Below, piece by piece: positions 1 to 12,715 of a DNA stretch of 12,906 bases. Under the pieces are notes generated by a model. It was not told the origin of the DNA. It was given only the letters and a program-made list of their open reading frames with translations, and ran no database searches. This stretch comes from Candidatus Lindowiibacteriota bacterium (GTDB lineage Bacteria; Lindowbacteria; 2-12-FULL-62-27). The DNA is taken from NCBI GenBank assembly GCA_023249255.1, contig JAHFCY010000060.1:1-12906 (forward strand). Reading direction: 5' to 3'. Position numbers and translations under genes: made by a program. Position 1 is the stretch's first letter. The number at the start of each line of letters is the position of its first letter.

Positions 1-2193
1 TACGGGCCGGGCAGTGAGTCAGTGAAGGGGCTGGAGCTTCCGAAAGGCACCGGCGTGGTCGGATGGGTTGTGAACATGAAAAAGCCGACGATCGTGAAGG
101 ACGCGACGGCCGACAAGCGGTTTGCCGGCGGGACCGACCAGAAGACGGGATTCGTGACCAAATCGATGATCTGTGTGCCGCTTCTGGTTCGGGCCTCGGG
201 CGCGATTCTCGGCGCGATTCAGGTGTTGAACAAAAAAGGCGAGAGCGGACAATTCGGCGACGCGGACCTGGAGTTGTGCAAGGTCATGGCGGAAAACGCC
301 GCCTCGGCCATCGTGAACGCCCGGTCGTTCGAATCGGAAAAGAAGGCCAAAGAGCGCATTCAGGTGTTCAACGAATTCAACAAAGTCCAGAGTTCGACGC
401 TCGATCTGGACAAACTGCTCGACATCATTTTGAAACGCGTCGTGACGATCCTCGACGCTGTGGCCGGAAGCGTGTGGCTGCGCCAGGGGAGCGAACTCAC
501 CGCCAAAGTCGCGGTCGGTCCGACTGCCGGGAAACTCGTGGGCGCGAAAGTCGGCGTGGGGACGGGCATCGTCGGCAGTGTCGTGCAGAAAAAGGCGCCC
601 GTCATCGTCGAGGACGCGTCAAAATCGGATCTCTTTTCCGGCAAAGTCGATGACGCGACCGGATTCAAAACGAAATCGCTGATGACCGTTCCGCTGATCC
701 ATCAGGACGAGGCGATCGGCGCAATCCAGGTCATCAATAAAAAAGATGAAGACGACCTATTCACGAAAGACGATATGGAACTTCTGTCGAGCCTCGCGGG
801 CCTGTCGACCAGCGCGATCAAAAACGCGACGCTGTTTGAGGTCGAACGCAAGGCGAAGGACCTGCACACCCTGCTTGAAATTTCCAAGGAAGTCTCGTCG
901 AACCTCGACATCGACAGCGTGCTTCTGACCGTCGTCAATCTCACCAACCAGGTCGTGCCGTATGAGCGGGCGGCCATGCTCGTCCGGGACGAAAACAAAT
1001 ATGATTTGCGCGCCGTGTCCGGCACGGCCAAAATCGACAAATCCGATCCGGCCTTGAAAGCGCTCGATAACGCGGCCGATTCGATCGACAAAGATCTTTA
1101 CATCGCGGACGCCGAGCAGTATCTCGCCGACGCGGGCGGCATCCCGTCCGTGAAGGAATATCTCAAGGCGTCGGGGGTCGCGTCATTTTACGCGCGCGTT
1201 CTGGCGGACGACCAGGGCATTCTGGCGCTGATGACGATGGAGAGCAAGACGAAGGATTTCGTCCAGCCGTCGCAGATGGAGATGTTGACGCTTCTGGCGA
1301 ATCAGGTCACCGTCGCGATCCGAAACGCCGAGCTTTACAAATCGGTGCCGCTGTTTTCGAGTCTCGGCAAGAGCGCCATCGGCAAGCGGCCGCTCATTGC
1401 GCTGGGCATCGCGATTCCGGTCATCGCCGGAATCTGGGCGGGCCTCACCATGCCGATGGTCGACCACCGGATCATGGCCCAGGTCGAGATCGTTCCCATC
1501 GTGCGGAACAAAATTTACGCCAAAGAAAGCGGGATTCTCGACAAGGTCAATTTCCGTGAAGGCGACACCGTCAAGGCCGGCGATCTGTTTGCCGAAATAT
1601 CGACGCAGGACATGGATCAGGAGAAGGGGAAAATTCTGACGAAACGCGAACTGGCGCGCCAGTCGTATCTTCGGGCGCTCGGACTTTCCCAGATGGCGGA
1701 CGCGCGGATGAAGGAGGCCGATATCGCCCAGGCCGACCAGGACCTTGCCAATCTGAACGCGAAAATGGAAAACACGAAGGTCTTTTCGCCCTACGAGGGC
1801 CAGATACTCACGCAGGACTTGCCGCAGAAAGTCGGCGAGAACGTGAGCAAGGGCGCGATCGTGGGCGAGGTCGTCGACTTGTCGAAACTCCTCGTAAAAG
1901 TCATGATCCCCCAGGAACAGATGCGCTACATCAAGGCCAATGAGGATGTCCATTTCAAGGTGTCCGCCTATCCGAACCGGGATTTTGCCGCGAAGATCGA
2001 GAAATTTTCGATTGAATCGGAAAAGAAGGCCGACAAAATTTATTACAACGGATTTGCGGCCATCGACAACGTGGACCGCAGTCTCCGGTCGGGCATGTCC
2101 GGCCGCGGGAAAATTCACGCCGGCCAGTGGCGGCCGATCGACTCTCTTCTGGAACAGCCCAAACACTGGGTCCAGATGAACTGGGTGTGGTGA
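1..2193 (+). CDS. GAF-domain sensor fused to HlyD-type membrane fusion protein (5' partial)
   Basis: The reading frame is open from base 1, so the true start lies outside the window. Three GAF domains are visible. The tail of GAF1 spans nt 1-345, and GAF2 (about nt 400-840) is clearly homologous to it; both share the pattern TGxVGxVV, GFxTKS, VPL and IGAIQVxNKK. GAF3 (about nt 880-1350) is more divergent. A single hydrophobic helix follows (nt 1387-1458, RPLIALGIAIPVIAGIWAGL). An HlyD-type adaptor comes next: a lipoyl-like half (SGILDKVNFREGDTVKAGDL), a short helical hairpin (nt 1620-1780), a second lipoyl half (SPYEGQIL) and a beta-barrel ending at SGRGKIHAG. The single helix implies cytoplasmic GAF domains and a periplasmic adaptor. 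The NKK...F...DD pattern of GAF2 resembles the NKFDE motif of cyclic-nucleotide-binding GAF domains, but the ligand is unknown. An adaptor gene follows 2 nt downstream, which fits one export system. A transporter or M50-peptidase partner may lie upstream; it is not in the window. Confidence 0.88.
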   Translation, partial: YGPGSESVKGLELPKGTGVVGWVVNMKKPTIVKDATADKRFAGGTDQKTGFVTKSMICVPLLVRASGAILGAIQVLNKKGESGQFGDADLELCKVMAENAASAIVNARSFESEKKAKERIQVFNEFNKVQSSTLDLDKLLDIILKRVVTILDAVAGSVWLRQGSELTAKVAVGPTAGKLVGAKVGVGTGIVGSVVQKKAPVIVEDASKSDLFSGKVDDATGFKTKSLMTVPLIHQDEAIGAIQVINKKDEDDLFTKDDMELLSSLAGLSTSAIKNATLFEVERKAKDLHTLLEISKEVSSNLDIDSVLLTVVNLTNQVVPYERAAMLVRDENKYDLRAVSGTAKIDKSDPALKALDNAADSIDKDLYIADAEQYLADAGGIPSVKEYLKASGVASFYARVLADDQGILALMTMESKTKDFVQPSQMEMLTLLANQVTVAIRNAELYKSVPLFSSLGKSAIGKRPLIALGIAIPVIAGIWAGLTMPMVDHRIMAQVEIVPIVRNKIYAKESGILDKVNFREGDTVKAGDLFAEISTQDMDQEKGKILTKRELARQSYLRALGLSQMADARMKEADIAQADQDLANLNAKMENTKVFSPYEGQILTQDLPQKVGENVSKGAIVGEVVDLSKLLVKVMIPQEQMRYIKANEDVHFKVSAYPNRDFAAKIEKFSIESEKKADKIYYNGFAAIDNVDRSLRSGMSGRGKIHAGQWRPIDSLLEQPKHWVQMNWVW

Positions 2194-2195
2194 AG

Positions 2196-3131
2196 ATGAC
2201 AACGCATTTTTTTCGCATGAGTCTGTTTACAGTTGCCGTTGCGGCAGTTGCCGCCTGCCTGTCTGCCGCCGCCCATGCGGACGTCTATCCCAACGGCCTT
2301 TTGGTTTCCTATCAGGAAGTATCGGTGAGTCCGAGATCGTCCGGGGTGGTCGAGAAGATTTTTGTGCGCGAGGGGCAGTGGATTGCGCAGAGGGACAAGA
2401 TCGGCATACTGGACTCGGCGAAAGAGGAAATGGACGTTCGGGCAACGGAACTGGATCTGGAACAGCAACGGCTGTCGCTCGATAAACTGAAACAGGGCAC
2501 CCCCGCGAAAGAAATTGAAAAAATGGAAGTGGACATAGAGAAGGCGAAACTGGCGAAGGAGAAGGCGGAGGCGGATCTTGCACGGGTCAAGCGTCTCTTT
2601 GAAGAGAAGGCGGTGTCGGAGAAAGACGTGCTCGACGCCAAAAACACGCTGGACGTGGCGGCCCTCTCGGTAAAATCGCTGGAAATAGCGCTGGACATCT
2701 CAAAGGATAATCCGAAAAAAGAGGACGTCGTTCTTCAGGAAATGAAAATCACGCAGACCATGCTGACGCTGGACCAGAAGAAACTCGCCGTCGAAAAAAT
2801 GACCGTCCTCTCGACGACGGCGGGTGTCATTTCCAAACTCTATTACGCGCCCGGAGAAAACGCGTCAGCCGGCCAGCCGTTCTGCGACGTTCTCAACACG
2901 GACAGCCTCTACGTGGAGTTAAACCTACCGGTGAGCGAGATCAAGCGGATCAAGACGGGCACTAAGGCGACCGTAACGGTGCCGGTGATCACACCCCAAA
3001 GTTTCCCGGGGTTCGTGGTCTTCGTCAGCCCGACGGTCGATCCGGCCAGCCGGACGTTCAAAATCCGGATTGAGATTGCAAATCCGAACCGATTGTTAAA
3101 ACCGGGGCTGTTCGCGACGGTGTCGATTTAG
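2196..3131 (+). CDS. Periplasmic HlyD/RND-type efflux adaptor
   Basis: The product has 311 residues. The ATG at 2196 is chosen over the in-frame GTG at 2127, which lies inside the upstream gene, because it opens an export signal. Residues 1-28 have an Arg7 n-region, a hydrophobic stretch FTVAVAAVAA, and either signal peptidase I cleavage after AHA28 or a lipobox-like VAAC with Cys21. Both are possible, and adaptors of this family are often lipoproteins. Residues 30-73 form the first lipoyl half (SSGVVEKIFVREGQW). Residues 74-200 are a Lys/Glu-rich coiled-coil hairpin. Residues 205-240 are the second lipoyl half (TTAGVISKLYYAPGENASAG), and 245-311 are a beta-barrel with DPASRTFKIRIEI and LLKPGLFATVSI, typical of MFP/RND adaptors. 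It starts 2 nt after the GAF-HlyD stop, so the two are probably co-translated. It is rather short, with little or no membrane-proximal domain after the barrel. The substrate cannot be inferred. Its TAG stop overlaps the stop of the convergent histone gene. Confidence 0.88.
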   Translation: MTTHFFRMSLFTVAVAAVAACLSAAAHADVYPNGLLVSYQEVSVSPRSSGVVEKIFVREGQWIAQRDKIGILDSAKEEMDVRATELDLEQQRLSLDKLKQGTPAKEIEKMEVDIEKAKLAKEKAEADLARVKRLFEEKAVSEKDVLDAKNTLDVAALSVKSLEIALDISKDNPKKEDVVLQEMKITQTMLTLDQKKLAVEKMTVLSTTAGVISKLYYAPGENASAGQPFCDVLNTDSLYVELNLPVSEIKRIKTGTKATVTVPVITPQSFPGFVVFVSPTVDPASRTFKIRIEIANPNRLLKPGLFATVSI

Positions 3132-7209: not shown

Positions 7210-7325
7210 CCACACACAGACATCCACAGGCGCCCACAGACACGAACCGGCCATGCTATTTTAGAAATATTTTTTCGCCGGCGTCCTGTCTGTGTCTGTC
7301 CGTGCCTGTGTGCGTCTGTGTGTGG
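7210..7325. repeat. CACAGACA-type inverted repeat between glyQ and glyS
   Basis: The left arm (7210-7250) is built from degenerate CACAGACA-like units. The right arm (7284-7325) is its reverse complement with mismatches. The outer 12 bp are a perfect match: CCACACACAGAC at 7210-7221 against GTCTGTGTGTGG at 7314-7325. The loop (7251-7283) is AT-rich in part. It fills most of the 138-nt gap, from 15 nt before the glyS ATG to 8 nt beyond the glyQ stop. A relative lies at 8226-8327. There is no T-run on the minus strand after the hairpin, so it does not look like a terminator. Confidence 0.75.
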
Positions 7326-7333
7326 CAAAAGAT

Positions 7334-8225: not shown

Positions 8226-8327
8226 GCCACAGACAGACAACCACAGACATTCACAGACACAGACCGGAGACATGGTTGAGGGGCGGGGTGGACAGCCTGT
8301 GTGTGTCTGTCCGTGTCTGTGTGTGGC
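8226..8327. repeat. CACAGACA-type inverted repeat between cutA and glyQ
   Basis: This is a second member of the family at 7210-7325. The left arm (8226-8266) has CACAGACA units and ends in ACCGG followed shortly by CATG, just as the left arm of the other copy does. The right arm (8293-8327) shares CTGTCCGTG and CTGTGTGTGGC with the other copy but is about one repeat unit shorter. It fills most of the 137-nt gap upstream of glyQ. No open frame or terminator is evident. Confidence 0.7.
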
Positions 8328-8333
8328 TTCATG

Positions 8334-8359
8334 TTTTCATCATGTGTTTTCATCATGTG
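8334..8359. repeat. 13-bp tandem duplication over the cutA stop
   Basis: TTTTCATCATGTG occurs twice in direct tandem (8334-8346 and 8347-8359). The cutA TGA (8353-8355 on the minus strand) is inside the second unit. It looks like a slippage duplication just after or over the end of cutA. Confidence 0.7.
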
Positions 8360-8745: not shown

Positions 8746-8777
8746 CAAATGTCAATGATGTCAATACCCGGCCCCAT
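8746..8777 (+). repeat. 32-bp transposon-associated repeat, copy R1
   Basis: R1 matches R3 (12684-12715) in the same orientation, with one mismatch (AATGATG instead of AATAATG). Identity extends four bases outward as AAAT on the left side. It reads CAAATGTCAATGATGTCAAT and then ACCCGGCCCCAT. It lies 26 nt beyond the stop of the DHH-family gene and 60 nt upstream of cutA. The rest of the 118-nt gap (8686-8803) holds no gene I can support. Confidence 0.9.
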
Positions 8778-8803: not shown

Positions 8804-11668
8804 CTATATTCGGATATTCAGAAATTCCATACGATTCGGAACGGTGCCGACGATCGTGTACCCGGATTGATCGGCCGTCATCAGCCCGAATAAATCGCAC
8901 AAACGATAGATGTCCTCCTTGTTCAGCCAGCGCGATTTCCGCGGAATGTATTTGCTCAACCGCCCGCTCGCGATCCCGACCCATTCCGTCCCGGCGTCTT
9001 CCGACCAGCCAAGGCCCTTGGCCAGACGATCGACATTCAATCGTTTTGCCGGGTCGTTCACGTTATGGATGACGATCGAGTTCAGCCCCGTCTGGCAATA
9101 GACCAGATAATGAACGTCCGTTCTGCGGCGAACGTCATTGTAGACGTGAAGATAACTGACCGGGGTATCGGGCGTTTTATCGGGCGCTTTGACGAAAAGC
9201 ACAAAAATTCGGTCGGATTTGGGGTTTGGGCCGGTCAGTTCAAGCTTGAGGGAGTTCTCATGCATCCGCTCCAGAATTTTGTTCTGTTCATCGCTCATCT
9301 GCATATCCGGCGGCATGACGCCGATGAGGTCTAATCCGCACTTCGACGCAATCCGCTCGCCGATATACCACAGGTACTGAAGAAAATTCAGGTCATTTAT
9401 CTTTGAAAATATCCGCCGGGGAAACGCCGGGTTTTGATCGGGCCGGCAAGTCGCCGCGCCGCTGTGGCCGCCGTCCGCCCGGCACCCCAGATGCTGGGCC
9501 AGAAGGCTTAGGTCAAAGGTGAAATCCTCCTTGTTGGATTTTCGCATCTGCAGCATGCTTGAGTCGTAACAATAAAAAAAATAATCGCACGGGTACTTCT
9601 TCCCGCCCAGCAGGTATCCCATCGCGGACGCCACGTTGATTTGAGGGTCGCTAAACGGAGGCAACACGGCGAGAATATGGATGCGGCGCTCCTCTCCCTC
9701 CTCCCCCGCGCAGCCCAGCACGATATGTCCGATGGCCTGTTCGGTCAGCGGAAGAACTTTCGACAGTTTCCCGTCGAAGGATTTCACGCCTGACGCCCAT
9801 CCGGCGAGAGACATGACCTGATCGGCCGATTTTTCGTCTTTGAGGGTTCGAGCGAGAGTCAGAACCATATCGATTTTACTGTGCTTTAATCCAATCACTC
9901 TGGACAACTGCATCGCCAGGTCAATTCTCTCGATCGCCAAATCCTGGCAGTGCGCCAGATTTCTCAATTTGCTCAACCCGCCGTTGTCCCACGGCTTGCC
10001 TTGGACATATTGCTCATAAATAAGGTCCGCGCCGCATTTTTGCCGATCCACGGGCAGTTCTTCGCCGCGCGGCAAACTGGAAAGCTTGATATGGCCGATG
10101 TATCCCTGTTCTTTGAGCTCTTGAAGTTTATTCAGAATGGCCGGAGTGTACGGATGATGGTCGTCAATAGCCGCGATGGTAATGTCGTGGTCCTTCAGAA
10201 ATTTGATCTCGCGTTCCATCAGGTCAAGCGAAACCTTCATGGCCCGGTCGATGCCCTCGGGGTCGGCGAACGCGTCCGTCTCCTCCTCGACGTAAGCGCC
10301 GCTTGTTTCGGCGTCGGGATTGATTTCGGACGGAAAATAGATGTGGTTCATCTCGTCGAACGTCGCGCTGAAACGATAGGCCTCATCGGGCGACGCGGGC
10401 CTGTAAAAAACCTCGATCAATCCGTTCCGGTCCGTCACCTGACAAACTTCAGGTCCCGCGTCTTCCGTTCCATCGGGCAAAACAAATGCGCCGCTTCCTT
10501 CAAGACGCCTTACGACAATTTCGATGTTGGACACCGCGATTCCCGACGCCTCGTACATCACCATTAAACGGACGGGGACAAGACCGTCTTTCGATTCCGG
10601 CGGCCGGGGATTTTTAATTTGTTCCGTGATTTCCACGAGCGAATGCAGGCAGGTGCGGATGTTTTGGATGGCCGATTCCACTCCTTCATCGCCCATCGGA
10701 GTTTGAGGCGTCATGTTGATGAGGTCGGTAAAATAATTCTTGAGCGCGGCTCTGACACTCTCAATGTCCTCTGTGATTTTCGCCGTCAATTTGGGGCTGA
10801 CCTGATCGAGCCGAAGTTCCCGGATTTGTTTCAGGCCGCGAATGGCATAGGCCACCGTCTCGACGGCCAGAATGAGAAGCGCGGGCGTATTCTCGATCTG
10901 CCAATGCGTGGACGAATCCTCCTCGGCGGCCTTCAGTAAAGCGAGGATATATCTCTTTTCGGCGGCGGCATCATATTTTTTATCCAAAACGATATCGATG
11001 AGGTCCTGCTTCGTCCGGGATTCGGTCGCGCCCGACAATCTCCCCCGAAGCCGATCGAGATCGGCGCCCGTTGCAGCTTGGATTATTTGGTCAACCCATT
11101 CACCGATGACGGATGAGAGCGCCGGGTCGGCCGTCGTTTTCGCGACGATGTTCAAATAGGCGAGATTGTAAAAAAGGTAAATGAGGTTGTTGCCGGCTTT
11201 GATCGCCGCCGATTCCTGATGTTCGATCACCTTTGAATATTGAAGAAATATTTGATTCGACACTGCTTTCAGGCCGGGCGAAATAACCGCGCTGTAATCC
11301 GCGATCCATCGGCGGTACTCGGTAAACAGATGGGTGAATTCGTTCAAATATTTTATGGCCTCTTCTTCCGTAACCAGAATCATCTTGATCCGAGGAACGA
11401 GCGCGTCGATCGGAAAATCCGGCAGATAAATGTCCGAGCCGCGATGGATCACCAGATGAAACAGCCCTTCCGAATAGTTCACGAAGTCAAACGCGTAATC
11501 CTGTCCGTACACAGGTTCCCGGCCCAGAACTTCCTTCAGATGATTTTGGGCCCAGACCGCGTAAAAAACGTTGGAAGCGACCGTGTCCAAGTCCCCGCCG
11601 CTTTCCTTGCCCATCCCATCCCGCATGCCTTTTCCATGAATAATAAAAACTTTTTTTCGATAGCTCAT
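8804..11668 (-). CDS. Large DHH/DHHA1-family phosphoesterase-like protein with a split core and tandem DHHA1 domains
   Basis: The product has 954 residues with no signal peptide or membrane helix. The ATG at 11668 (MSYRKKVFIIHGKG) is chosen; the frame is open to 12019, but the extra part overlaps the transposase gene and translates the 32-bp repeat. Domains by eye: residues 1-90 are an N-terminal DHH half with motif I GGDLDTVAS (24-32; Asp26, Asp28, Ser32), like the PPX1/PRUNE DLDS motif, and SDIYLPDF (78-85) as a motif II candidate. Residues 91-355 are mostly helical and unrecognised. Residues 364-448 form a beta-rich, Ig/Big-1-like stretch (VTDRNGLIEVFYRP). Residues 475-505 resume the DHH core, ending in AAIDDHHPYTP (500-509). 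LAHCQD (571-576) is a motif IV candidate. Residues 663-745 are DHHA1 with DGGHSGAA (732-739), and 821-905 are a second DHHA1-like copy without GGH. Metal-dependent cleavage of a phosphodiester or phosphoanhydride is the family expectation; the substrate is unknown. It is framed by repeats R1 and R2. Confidence 0.75.
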   Translation of the reverse strand: MSYRKKVFIIHGKGMRDGMGKESGGDLDTVASNVFYAVWAQNHLKEVLGREPVYGQDYAFDFVNYSEGLFHLVIHRGSDIYLPDFPIDALVPRIKMILVTEEEAIKYLNEFTHLFTEYRRWIADYSAVISPGLKAVSNQIFLQYSKVIEHQESAAIKAGNNLIYLFYNLAYLNIVAKTTADPALSSVIGEWVDQIIQAATGADLDRLRGRLSGATESRTKQDLIDIVLDKKYDAAAEKRYILALLKAAEEDSSTHWQIENTPALLILAVETVAYAIRGLKQIRELRLDQVSPKLTAKITEDIESVRAALKNYFTDLINMTPQTPMGDEGVESAIQNIRTCLHSLVEITEQIKNPRPPESKDGLVPVRLMVMYEASGIAVSNIEIVVRRLEGSGAFVLPDGTEDAGPEVCQVTDRNGLIEVFYRPASPDEAYRFSATFDEMNHIYFPSEINPDAETSGAYVEEETDAFADPEGIDRAMKVSLDLMEREIKFLKDHDITIAAIDDHHPYTPAILNKLQELKEQGYIGHIKLSSLPRGEELPVDRQKCGADLIYEQYVQGKPWDNGGLSKLRNLAHCQDLAIERIDLAMQLSRVIGLKHSKIDMVLTLARTLKDEKSADQVMSLAGWASGVKSFDGKLSKVLPLTEQAIGHIVLGCAGEEGEERRIHILAVLPPFSDPQINVASAMGYLLGGKKYPCDYFFYCYDSSMLQMRKSNKEDFTFDLSLLAQHLGCRADGGHSGAATCRPDQNPAFPRRIFSKINDLNFLQYLWYIGERIASKCGLDLIGVMPPDMQMSDEQNKILERMHENSLKLELTGPNPKSDRIFVLFVKAPDKTPDTPVSYLHVYNDVRRRTDVHYLVYCQTGLNSIVIHNVNDPAKRLNVDRLAKGLGWSEDAGTEWVGIASGRLSKYIPRKSRWLNKEDIYRLCDLFGLMTADQSGYTIVGTVPNRMEFLNIRI

Positions 11669-11752: not shown

Positions 11753-11788
11753 GGGACATGGGACATGGGGCCGTGGGACATGGGGCCG
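11753..11788 (+). repeat. GGGACATG short tandem repeat next to R2
   Basis: GGGACATGGGGCCG occurs twice with a 15-bp period (11760-11773 and 11775-11788), preceded by a partial unit GGGACATG at 11753-11760. The last unit runs into R2. It lies in the 130-nt gap between the DHH-family start and the transposase stop; I see no other feature there. Confidence 0.7.
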
Positions 11789-11811
11789 GGTATTGACATT
11801 ATTGACATTTG
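11780..11811 (-). repeat. 32-bp transposon-associated repeat, copy R2 (inverted)
   Basis: R2 is the exact reverse complement of R3 at 12684-12715 over 32 bp. It contains two direct 9-mers, TATTGACAT. The TAA stop of the transposase (11799-11801 on the minus strand) lies inside it. Because it is inverted relative to both R1 and R3, it forms an inverted pair with R3 around the transposase gene and with R1 around the DHH-family gene. Confidence 0.93.
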
Positions 11812-12668
11812 GCGGAGCGTTGAAAAGCATGAATGACGGCGGATGGCGTTCGATCAAAGACCCGGGCGATTTCGCTTGGGGCGTATCCCTCTTCGTATAA
11901 TTTGGCCATGATGCCTTGTCGAACTCGAGACTGCTTTCTCCTTTTCCCAAGCATCCGCAATTCCTCAAGTCGGCATCCTTGAGCGGCCGCTTCCTCCGTC
12001 GCTCGACTTTCGATTGCACTCATCCCTCGACGCTCCCGCCATCGACCGCGTGGTCTGCCGACCTCCCGCCGTTCAAGTTTCTTCTCCTCACCCGCTTCTC
12101 CAACAAACGTGTTGAACACCTTGACGTCCGCGGGATCGGATTCATCGATCGTTGCAAGATAAACGCGACGACCCGCTTCGCCTTCAAATCCGGGTACACG
12201 CGCAACCTCCACCATAGGATTCGCCCGGCCATATCGATAATATCCGTCTGAACTCCATCGATAGTCCTTGGACCGTCGAACCAGTTTTGCGGCCACAGGA
12301 TTTTTGTGGATGTATCGAACAAGATTCACCAGATACCGATCATCCAGCACCAAGTAGGCCTTGTACCGGCCTTGAAACACATACCCGCGCTTTCGATATT
12401 TCCGGTTGAAATATCTGGCATAGCGAGAATGGACCAATTGCATGATTCGGGATAGACGTTCAAATCCACGGTAGATCAAGAGGTGGACGTGATTGGACAT
12501 CAGGCAATAGGCGCCCAGCGTCCCACGACATCTCGTCAACGCATTTTGTAGTTCTATCAAGTACAGATTGTCATCTTGAGGTGAATGGAACAAACATTCA
12601 CCGCGCTGGCCGCGAGCGACAACGTGGTACCACTGATCTTCAACGTCAATTCTTACCGGTCTGGCCAC
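11799..12668 (-). CDS. REP-associated tyrosine transposase (Y1/HUH) with DnaA-like C-terminal HTH
   Basis: The product has 289 residues. It opens with MARPVRIDVEDQWYHVVARG, a typical RAYT N-terminus. The HUH motif is NHVHLLI (His60, His62). The likely catalytic tyrosine is Tyr119 in RYIHKNPVAAKLV, preceded by YVFQGRYKAYLV and followed by DYRWSS; all catalytic residues appear intact. RAYTs are often shorter (roughly 150-230 residues). The extra C-terminus has a charged linker (190-225) and then SRVRQGIMAKLYEEGYAPSE to SAVIHAFQR (247-284), which resembles the DnaA domain IV helix-turn-helix signature and would bind DNA. Start: GTG at 12668, because no in-frame ATG gives the family N-terminus; a short AGG lies just upstream. 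The stop falls inside repeat R2. The enzyme would cut and move single-stranded DNA at the flanking repeats. Confidence 0.9.
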   Translation of the reverse strand: MARPVRIDVEDQWYHVVARGQRGECLFHSPQDDNLYLIELQNALTRCRGTLGAYCLMSNHVHLLIYRGFERLSRIMQLVHSRYARYFNRKYRKRGYVFQGRYKAYLVLDDRYLVNLVRYIHKNPVAAKLVRRSKDYRWSSDGYYRYGRANPMVEVARVPGFEGEAGRRVYLATIDESDPADVKVFNTFVGEAGEEKKLERREVGRPRGRWRERRGMSAIESRATEEAAAQGCRLEELRMLGKRRKQSRVRQGIMAKLYEEGYAPSEIARVFDRTPSAVIHAFQRSAKCQ

Positions 12669-12683
12669 AGGGTGAACCTAAAT

Positions 12684-12715
12684 CAAATGTCAATAATGTC
12701 AATACCCGGCCCCAT
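12684..12715 (+). repeat. 32-bp transposon-associated repeat, copy R3
   Basis: R3 starts 15 nt upstream of the transposase GTG, is perfectly inverted relative to R2, and is in direct orientation relative to R1. It is followed by CCATTTTGG twice in tandem (12712-12720 and 12721-12729). Confidence 0.93.

Follow-up and report, generated by a model that had tools for sequence, protein, structure and literature searches.

Large insertions inside the catalytic domain of DHH proteins are known. In CBS-PPases, a segment of ~250 residues falls between N66 and Q67 of the DHH domain and serves as an internal inhibitor whose effect adenine nucleotides modulate (PMC7226116, PMC10742508). Cdc45 carries a helical insertion with an acidic stretch, L118-S197, inside its DHH domain (PMC4873980). 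The catalytic set of NrnA consists of H20, D24, D26, D80, H103, H104, D156 and H284 of the GGGH motif, and its R266 is the arginine common to RecJ (PMC5593865).

The window, that is, the whole stretch of 12,906 nucleotides analysed here (Candidatus Lindowiibacteriota bacterium, GCA_023249255.1, contig JAHFCY010000060.1), encodes a split DHH protein on its minus strand (Table 1). Translation of the gene gave 954 residues and a stop codon, and the start codon is backed by homologues with the same MRKK-IFIIHG beginning. The translation also confirmed the motif coordinates of an earlier sequence-only reading and the long gap that it saw between motif I and IDDHH. Its statement that no DHH protein was known to be built in this way was too strong, because CBS-PPases and Cdc45 have internal DHH inserts, albeit of different kinds and in different places. 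We consider the protein to be a catalytically competent two-metal DHH-DHHA1 phosphodiesterase/short-oligonucleotide exonuclease, with an insert at the active-site rim that is most likely regulatory or partner-binding and was gained once (probability roughly 0.62).

Table 1. Features of the split DHH gene and its product, with positions in the window
Feature	Residues	Window positions	Strand	Basis
Whole gene, 954-aa split DHH protein		8804..11668	-	start agrees with 17 long homologues
N-terminal half of DHH domain (b1 with H11, motif I, b3 with motif II)	1-90	11399..11668	-	contiguous with DHH half in compact paralogues; model; superposition
Motif I, GGDLDTVAS	24-32	11573..11599	-	D26, D28 invariant
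Motif II, SDIYLPDF	78-85	11414..11437	-	metal-ligand candidate D84 invariant; D79 not
Insert	~91-481	10226..11398	-	missing from compact paralogues; among 386 genomes, only in the DHH family under study
Helical module of insert	102-350	10619..11365	-	model; generic helical-bundle matches
Beta-rich Ig-like module of insert	362-446	10331..10585	-	model; weak Big_1 and filamin matches
Acidic low-confidence linker	447-469	10262..10330	-	pLDDT < 50 at 448-468; D/E-rich in most long forms
C-terminal half of DHH domain (motifs III, IV)	482-644	9737..10225	-	conservation; model; superposition
Motif III, IDDHH	501-505	10154..10168	-	D503, H504, H505 invariant
Motif IV candidate, QDL	575-577 (D576)	9938..9946	-	invariant in 23
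First DHHA1 domain	645-787	9308..9736	-	model; superposition; hhalign
DGGH signature of DHHA1	732-735	9464..9475	-	invariant; in line with NrnA GGGH
Second, degenerate DHHA1 copy (EDAGT for ADGGH)	793-944	8837..9292	-	hhalign 99.7%, E 4e-26 against first copy

Structural modelling supports the folding of residues 1-90 and ~482-644 into one DHH domain. The AF2 model of the 954-residue protein, made without templates, averaged a pLDDT of 79, with most values in the core segments at 85-95, and had a pTM of 0.67. Against structures of RecJ, pApase, NrnA-type proteins and PF0399, 256-330 residues of the model were aligned (VIA), spanning about residues 1..778 and skipping the insert. PF0399 (5yh1) matched with a Z score of 12.5 (rmsd 3.9, 330 residues, model range 1..778), a PAP phosphatase (8a8k) with 12.4, RecJ-Cdc45 (7bih) with 12.0 and RecJ (5f54) with 11.8, while the family II pyrophosphatase 2iw4 reached 8.5 over 3..593 only. 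With Foldseek alone, the matches to this multi-domain model were borderline, the best being PggH (7d62, E 2e-3, probability 1.0). It had been proposed from the sequence that the motif I segment is the missing half of the DHH core, with residues 1-90 and 475-600 in a single domain. This proposal held, as DHH structures superpose on the AF2 model across both halves and the compact paralogues hold both parts contiguously; models of the long and compact forms alike build the DHH fold from both segments. The C-terminal domain, which carries GGH, could be superposed on proteins of the DHHA1 type, and none of the 23 family members matched Pfam DHHA2.

Three compact paralogues (L010/L038, L011/L039 and L035; 388, 393 and 445 residues) have a GGDLD-to-DHH spacing of 78-88. 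Both close relatives have one (L010 and L011, 73% identical to each other), and in these the sequence is uninterrupted from motif I through YIPDLPLDTIPDLEGDIRELGRRGSRIVHFLDHHPW. In the window's own genome, two ends of a compact-type gene are found on two contigs (L003, L002). The AF2 model of a compact paralogue (pLDDT 93.0, pTM 0.88) matched RecJ in Foldseek with an E of 9e-9 and gave Z scores (VIA) of 19.5 for RecJ-Cdc45, 19.2 for RecJ and 19.0 for PF0399; its best 50 structural matches were all DHH-family or Cdc45-family chains. Secondary structures of the compact and long-form cores agreed element by element (b1 5-11, a1, b2 onward), with compact b3 at 70-75 corresponding to long 78-83, the helix before b4 at 85-94 to 470-493, and b4 at 98-104 to 496-503. 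No structures matched the compact form better than RecJ and archaeal RecJ-Cdc45 (GAN), at Z ~19, and the long form also has them among its top matches (Z ~12); they share the DHH-DHHA1 order and the catalytic set. Unlike them, the 954-residue protein has an insert inside the DHH domain and tandem DHHA1 copies, and it shows no significant sequence-profile match to them. In size, the compact paralogue equals the two-domain proteins of the NrnA, pApase and c-di-AMP phosphodiesterase group (DhhP, Rv2837c, TM1595). A third architecture was found in L036 and L037 (n=2, one from Hydrogenedentota), where ~175 residues are inserted between the strand-b1 HG motif and GGDLD; their motif II-to-DHH spacing is ordinary, with nothing inserted before the DHH motif. 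Compact and b1-insert relatives have 10 residues in the columns where the long form has its insert.

A scan of named genomes with an 8-sequence alignment retrieved 22 loci, comprising 17 split, 3 compact and 2 b1-insert forms. The split forms, all without a frame break, have a GGDLD-to-DHH spacing of ~457-490 residues and come from Lindowbacteria, Auribacterota (Erginobacter, Tritonobacter, Euphemobacter), Muiribacteriota, Elusimicrobiota, a Spirochaetes (Spirochaetota) bin and sediment bacteria. Since 18/18 long forms fell in one clade (support 100/98), their sequences are most simply explained by a single gain of the insert in the ancestor of that clade. The family is rare (10/386 sampled genomes), and no relatives were found in the viral contigs scanned. 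Replacement of ordinary DHH enzymes was rejected as a general rule, because each carrier genome has at least one PF01368 protein; in this coexistence with ordinary DHH proteins, the family contrasts with the NrnA/pApase group. Diadenylate cyclase was present in 13/13 carrier genomes, and the link to c-di-AMP says little because 11/14 control genomes also have the enzyme. No neighbour gene was conserved between phyla, so the neighbourhoods assign no operon-based function to the DHH gene.

Other elements were observed around the gene in the window. The repeat CAAATGTCAATAATGTCAATACCCGGCCCC is present at 8746-8775, 11782-11811 and 12684-12713, with 10 copies in the genome and 0 in the reversed control. 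A Y1_Tnp (REP-associated transposase-like) gene at 11802-12668 has a copy on either side, the two in inverted orientation, and a further copy is located downstream of the DHH gene; together, the copies and the Y1_Tnp gene are probably a REP/RAYT element. Intergenic repeats of the GTCTGTGTCTGT type occur in both orientations on both sides of glyQ (7210-7250, 7285-7327, 8226-8268 and 8296-8338). The protein encoded at 22-2190 combines two GAF domain matches with an HlyD-type membrane-fusion domain, and another HlyD gene comes next, at 2127-3128.

The alignment of long and compact forms bore out the insertion of roughly 390 residues described from the sequence, and the helical region and beta-rich stretch reported there appear in the model as ten helices and an Ig-like part. 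Between residues 93 and 490, the insert measures 376-409 residues across long forms. Mean pairwise identity is 27% in its helical part and 37% in its beta part, against 69% and 52% in the N-terminal and C-terminal core, and only 2/251 columns of the helical module are invariant. Values of dN/dS are ~0.09-0.32 in the helical part versus 0.04-0.10 in the long-form core halves, with synonymous sites partly saturated. Judged by these alignments, the insert is a real, selected protein under looser constraint than the core; a specificity or regulatory module would be expected to diverge fast under purifying selection, as this one does. An insert profile retrieved nothing outside the family from the 386 genomes, which leaves its identification as a known mobile domain unsupported. 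Pfam CBS matched neither the 23 members nor 17 isolated inserts, and the domain searches of the insert, which gave the weak Big_1 and filamin matches, revealed no known domain for ligand binding.

By the predicted fold, the insert would replace the short loop after motif II, at the C-terminal sheet edge where DHH active sites lie. This resembles CBS-PPases, in which a large module likewise interrupts the DHH catalytic domain in an internal loop. The position differs, as the CBS-PPase insert precedes motif II (going by family II numbering) and that of the 954-residue protein follows it. The parts differ as well: CBS and DRTGG with a DHHA2 partner domain in CBS-PPases, a helical and an Ig-like module with DHHA1 here. 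In the literature searched, which left out most subscription literature, we found no insert after motif II, no helical plus Ig-like module, no second insertion site and no tandem DHHA1.

We infer catalysis, a position of the insert at the active-site rim and a regulatory role for it. The module would have entered the loop after motif II once, in the long-clade ancestor. Two-metal catalysis would be carried out by the DHH domain reassembled from its two segments, as the conserved residues and the fold suggest; the first DHHA1 domain would grip the substrate, with the second as a degenerate copy. The helical module, Ig-like sandwich and acidic linker may then gate or tune access to the site, or recruit a partner. 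The analogous CBS insert of family II pyrophosphatases makes a regulatory role the most likely. An alternative that we think unlikely gives the insert a docking or scaffold role, by which an active DHH enzyme would be brought into a larger machine without control of its site. Helical bundles and Ig-like sandwiches are typical interaction folds, the helical part is poorly conserved, and the extra elements of Cdc45 make replisome contacts (PMC4873980). Against a docking role, we found no conserved neighbour gene or partner, and the inserts adjoin motif II in long forms or motif I in the b1-insert relatives, hinting at an effect on the site.

Tandem DHHA1 domains were seen only in long forms. Ten relatives with longer C-termini (L020, L022-L026, L028, L029, L032 and L033) carry an additional segment, which hhalign matched as a third DHHA1 copy (98%, E 2e-13), and reversed-sequence controls for these repeats gave nothing in hhalign. 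Together with the extension of the RecJ groove by an OB domain (PMC5484177), this restriction to long forms would suit an insert and extra DHHA1 copies that enlarge the substrate surface for long or structured nucleic acid, leaving small nucleotides to the compact paralogue. We regard such an enlarged surface as rather improbable, given that the linker is acidic and that the extra DHHA1 of the window protein, with EDAGT, lacks the GGH signature, although L030 keeps DGGH in its extra copy.

The catalytic competence of the preferred reading, an active enzyme with a regulatory or partner-binding insert, draws on the conservation of the core. Across 23 aligned sequences, which cover three architectures, G24-T29 and D503-H504-H505-P506 do not vary, and H11, D26, D28, D84, D88, D503, H504, H505, D576, R709 and D732-G733-G734-H735 are invariant in 23/23. 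In the AF2 model, motif I follows b1 (residues 5-11) and a helix begins at residue 27; motif II comes at the end of b3 (strand 78-83), and DHH at the end of strand 496-503. Earlier, both D79 and D84 had been offered as the motif II metal residue; D84 stands, being invariant, and D79 falls because it is E in L037. The motif IV aspartate, D576, is placed by its position in the sequence, and the superposition over DHHA1 reaches residue 778, beyond DGGH. Every NrnA-type catalytic residue thus has an invariant counterpart, on both sides of the insert. The b1 histidine of the compact paralogue is a putative extra metal ligand like NrnA H20, although the spacing from this histidine to DxD is 14 residues rather than 3, making a longer loop, and GGGH has become DGGH. 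R709 is, in our assignment by position, the candidate counterpart of R266. By comparison with DHH-DHHA1 relatives, the substrate would be a nucleotide-type phosphodiester. Loss of catalysis in a DHH fold is documented for Cdc45 (PMC5484177), and the H11-DxD spacing is unusual, so that a catalytically dead, Cdc45-like fold has some precedent. It is nevertheless a poor candidate here: no metal-ligand position varies among the 23 sequences, which represent three architectures, and the core is the slowest-evolving part, whereas Cdc45, with a different inserted module of ~80 residues, has lost its catalytic residues.

Standard profiles did not detect the family. Searches of Pfam, NCBIfam and PDB sequences with the whole 954-residue protein retrieved nothing usable, and family-wide profile scans were empty or noise. 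No member matched PF01368 (DHH) at an E of 0.1 or better, and hence none at the curated cut-off; G000:C274 was absent from the PF01368 matches. In hhalign, compact, N-terminal and C-terminal profiles were not significant against RecJ and NrnA (at most 7%, perhaps because of few sequences), while RecJ against NrnA gave 96%; DGGH fell in register with NrnA GGGH, even though the whole profile match was weak. Membership in the DHH-DHHA1 group therefore rests on fold and motifs. That Pfam sees no DHH domain is the sole support for placing GGDLDTVAS and IDDHH in unrelated domains, or for a gene chimera or assembly error, which we dismiss almost entirely in view of the structure, the compact paralogues and 17 further long homologues that keep the spacing. 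Chance or a frame artefact was likewise rejected, the motifs being invariant in 23 sequences and those 17 homologues having a similar spacing in one open frame.

The probable enzyme, with its putative regulatory or partner-binding insert, belongs to a family that is invisible to the standard DHH profile and that has one core in three architectures. Several little-known phyla share its long architecture, inherited from a single origin, and this points to control of the enzyme by a partner or signal that would bind next to the active site. More tentatively, this unnamed DHH-DHHA1 family may have had sensor modules inserted independently in two loops of the catalytic rim, one following motif II and the other separating b1 from motif I. 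The outcome would be signal-gated nucleotide phosphodiesterases in several uncultured phyla, with sensors unrelated to those of CBS-PPases; we lean slightly against this wider proposal. Compact and split paralogues share genomes, so the effect of the insert is directly testable. The family can serve as a natural experiment on the tolerance of a catalytic domain for modules placed in its active-site loops, and on its possible control by them.
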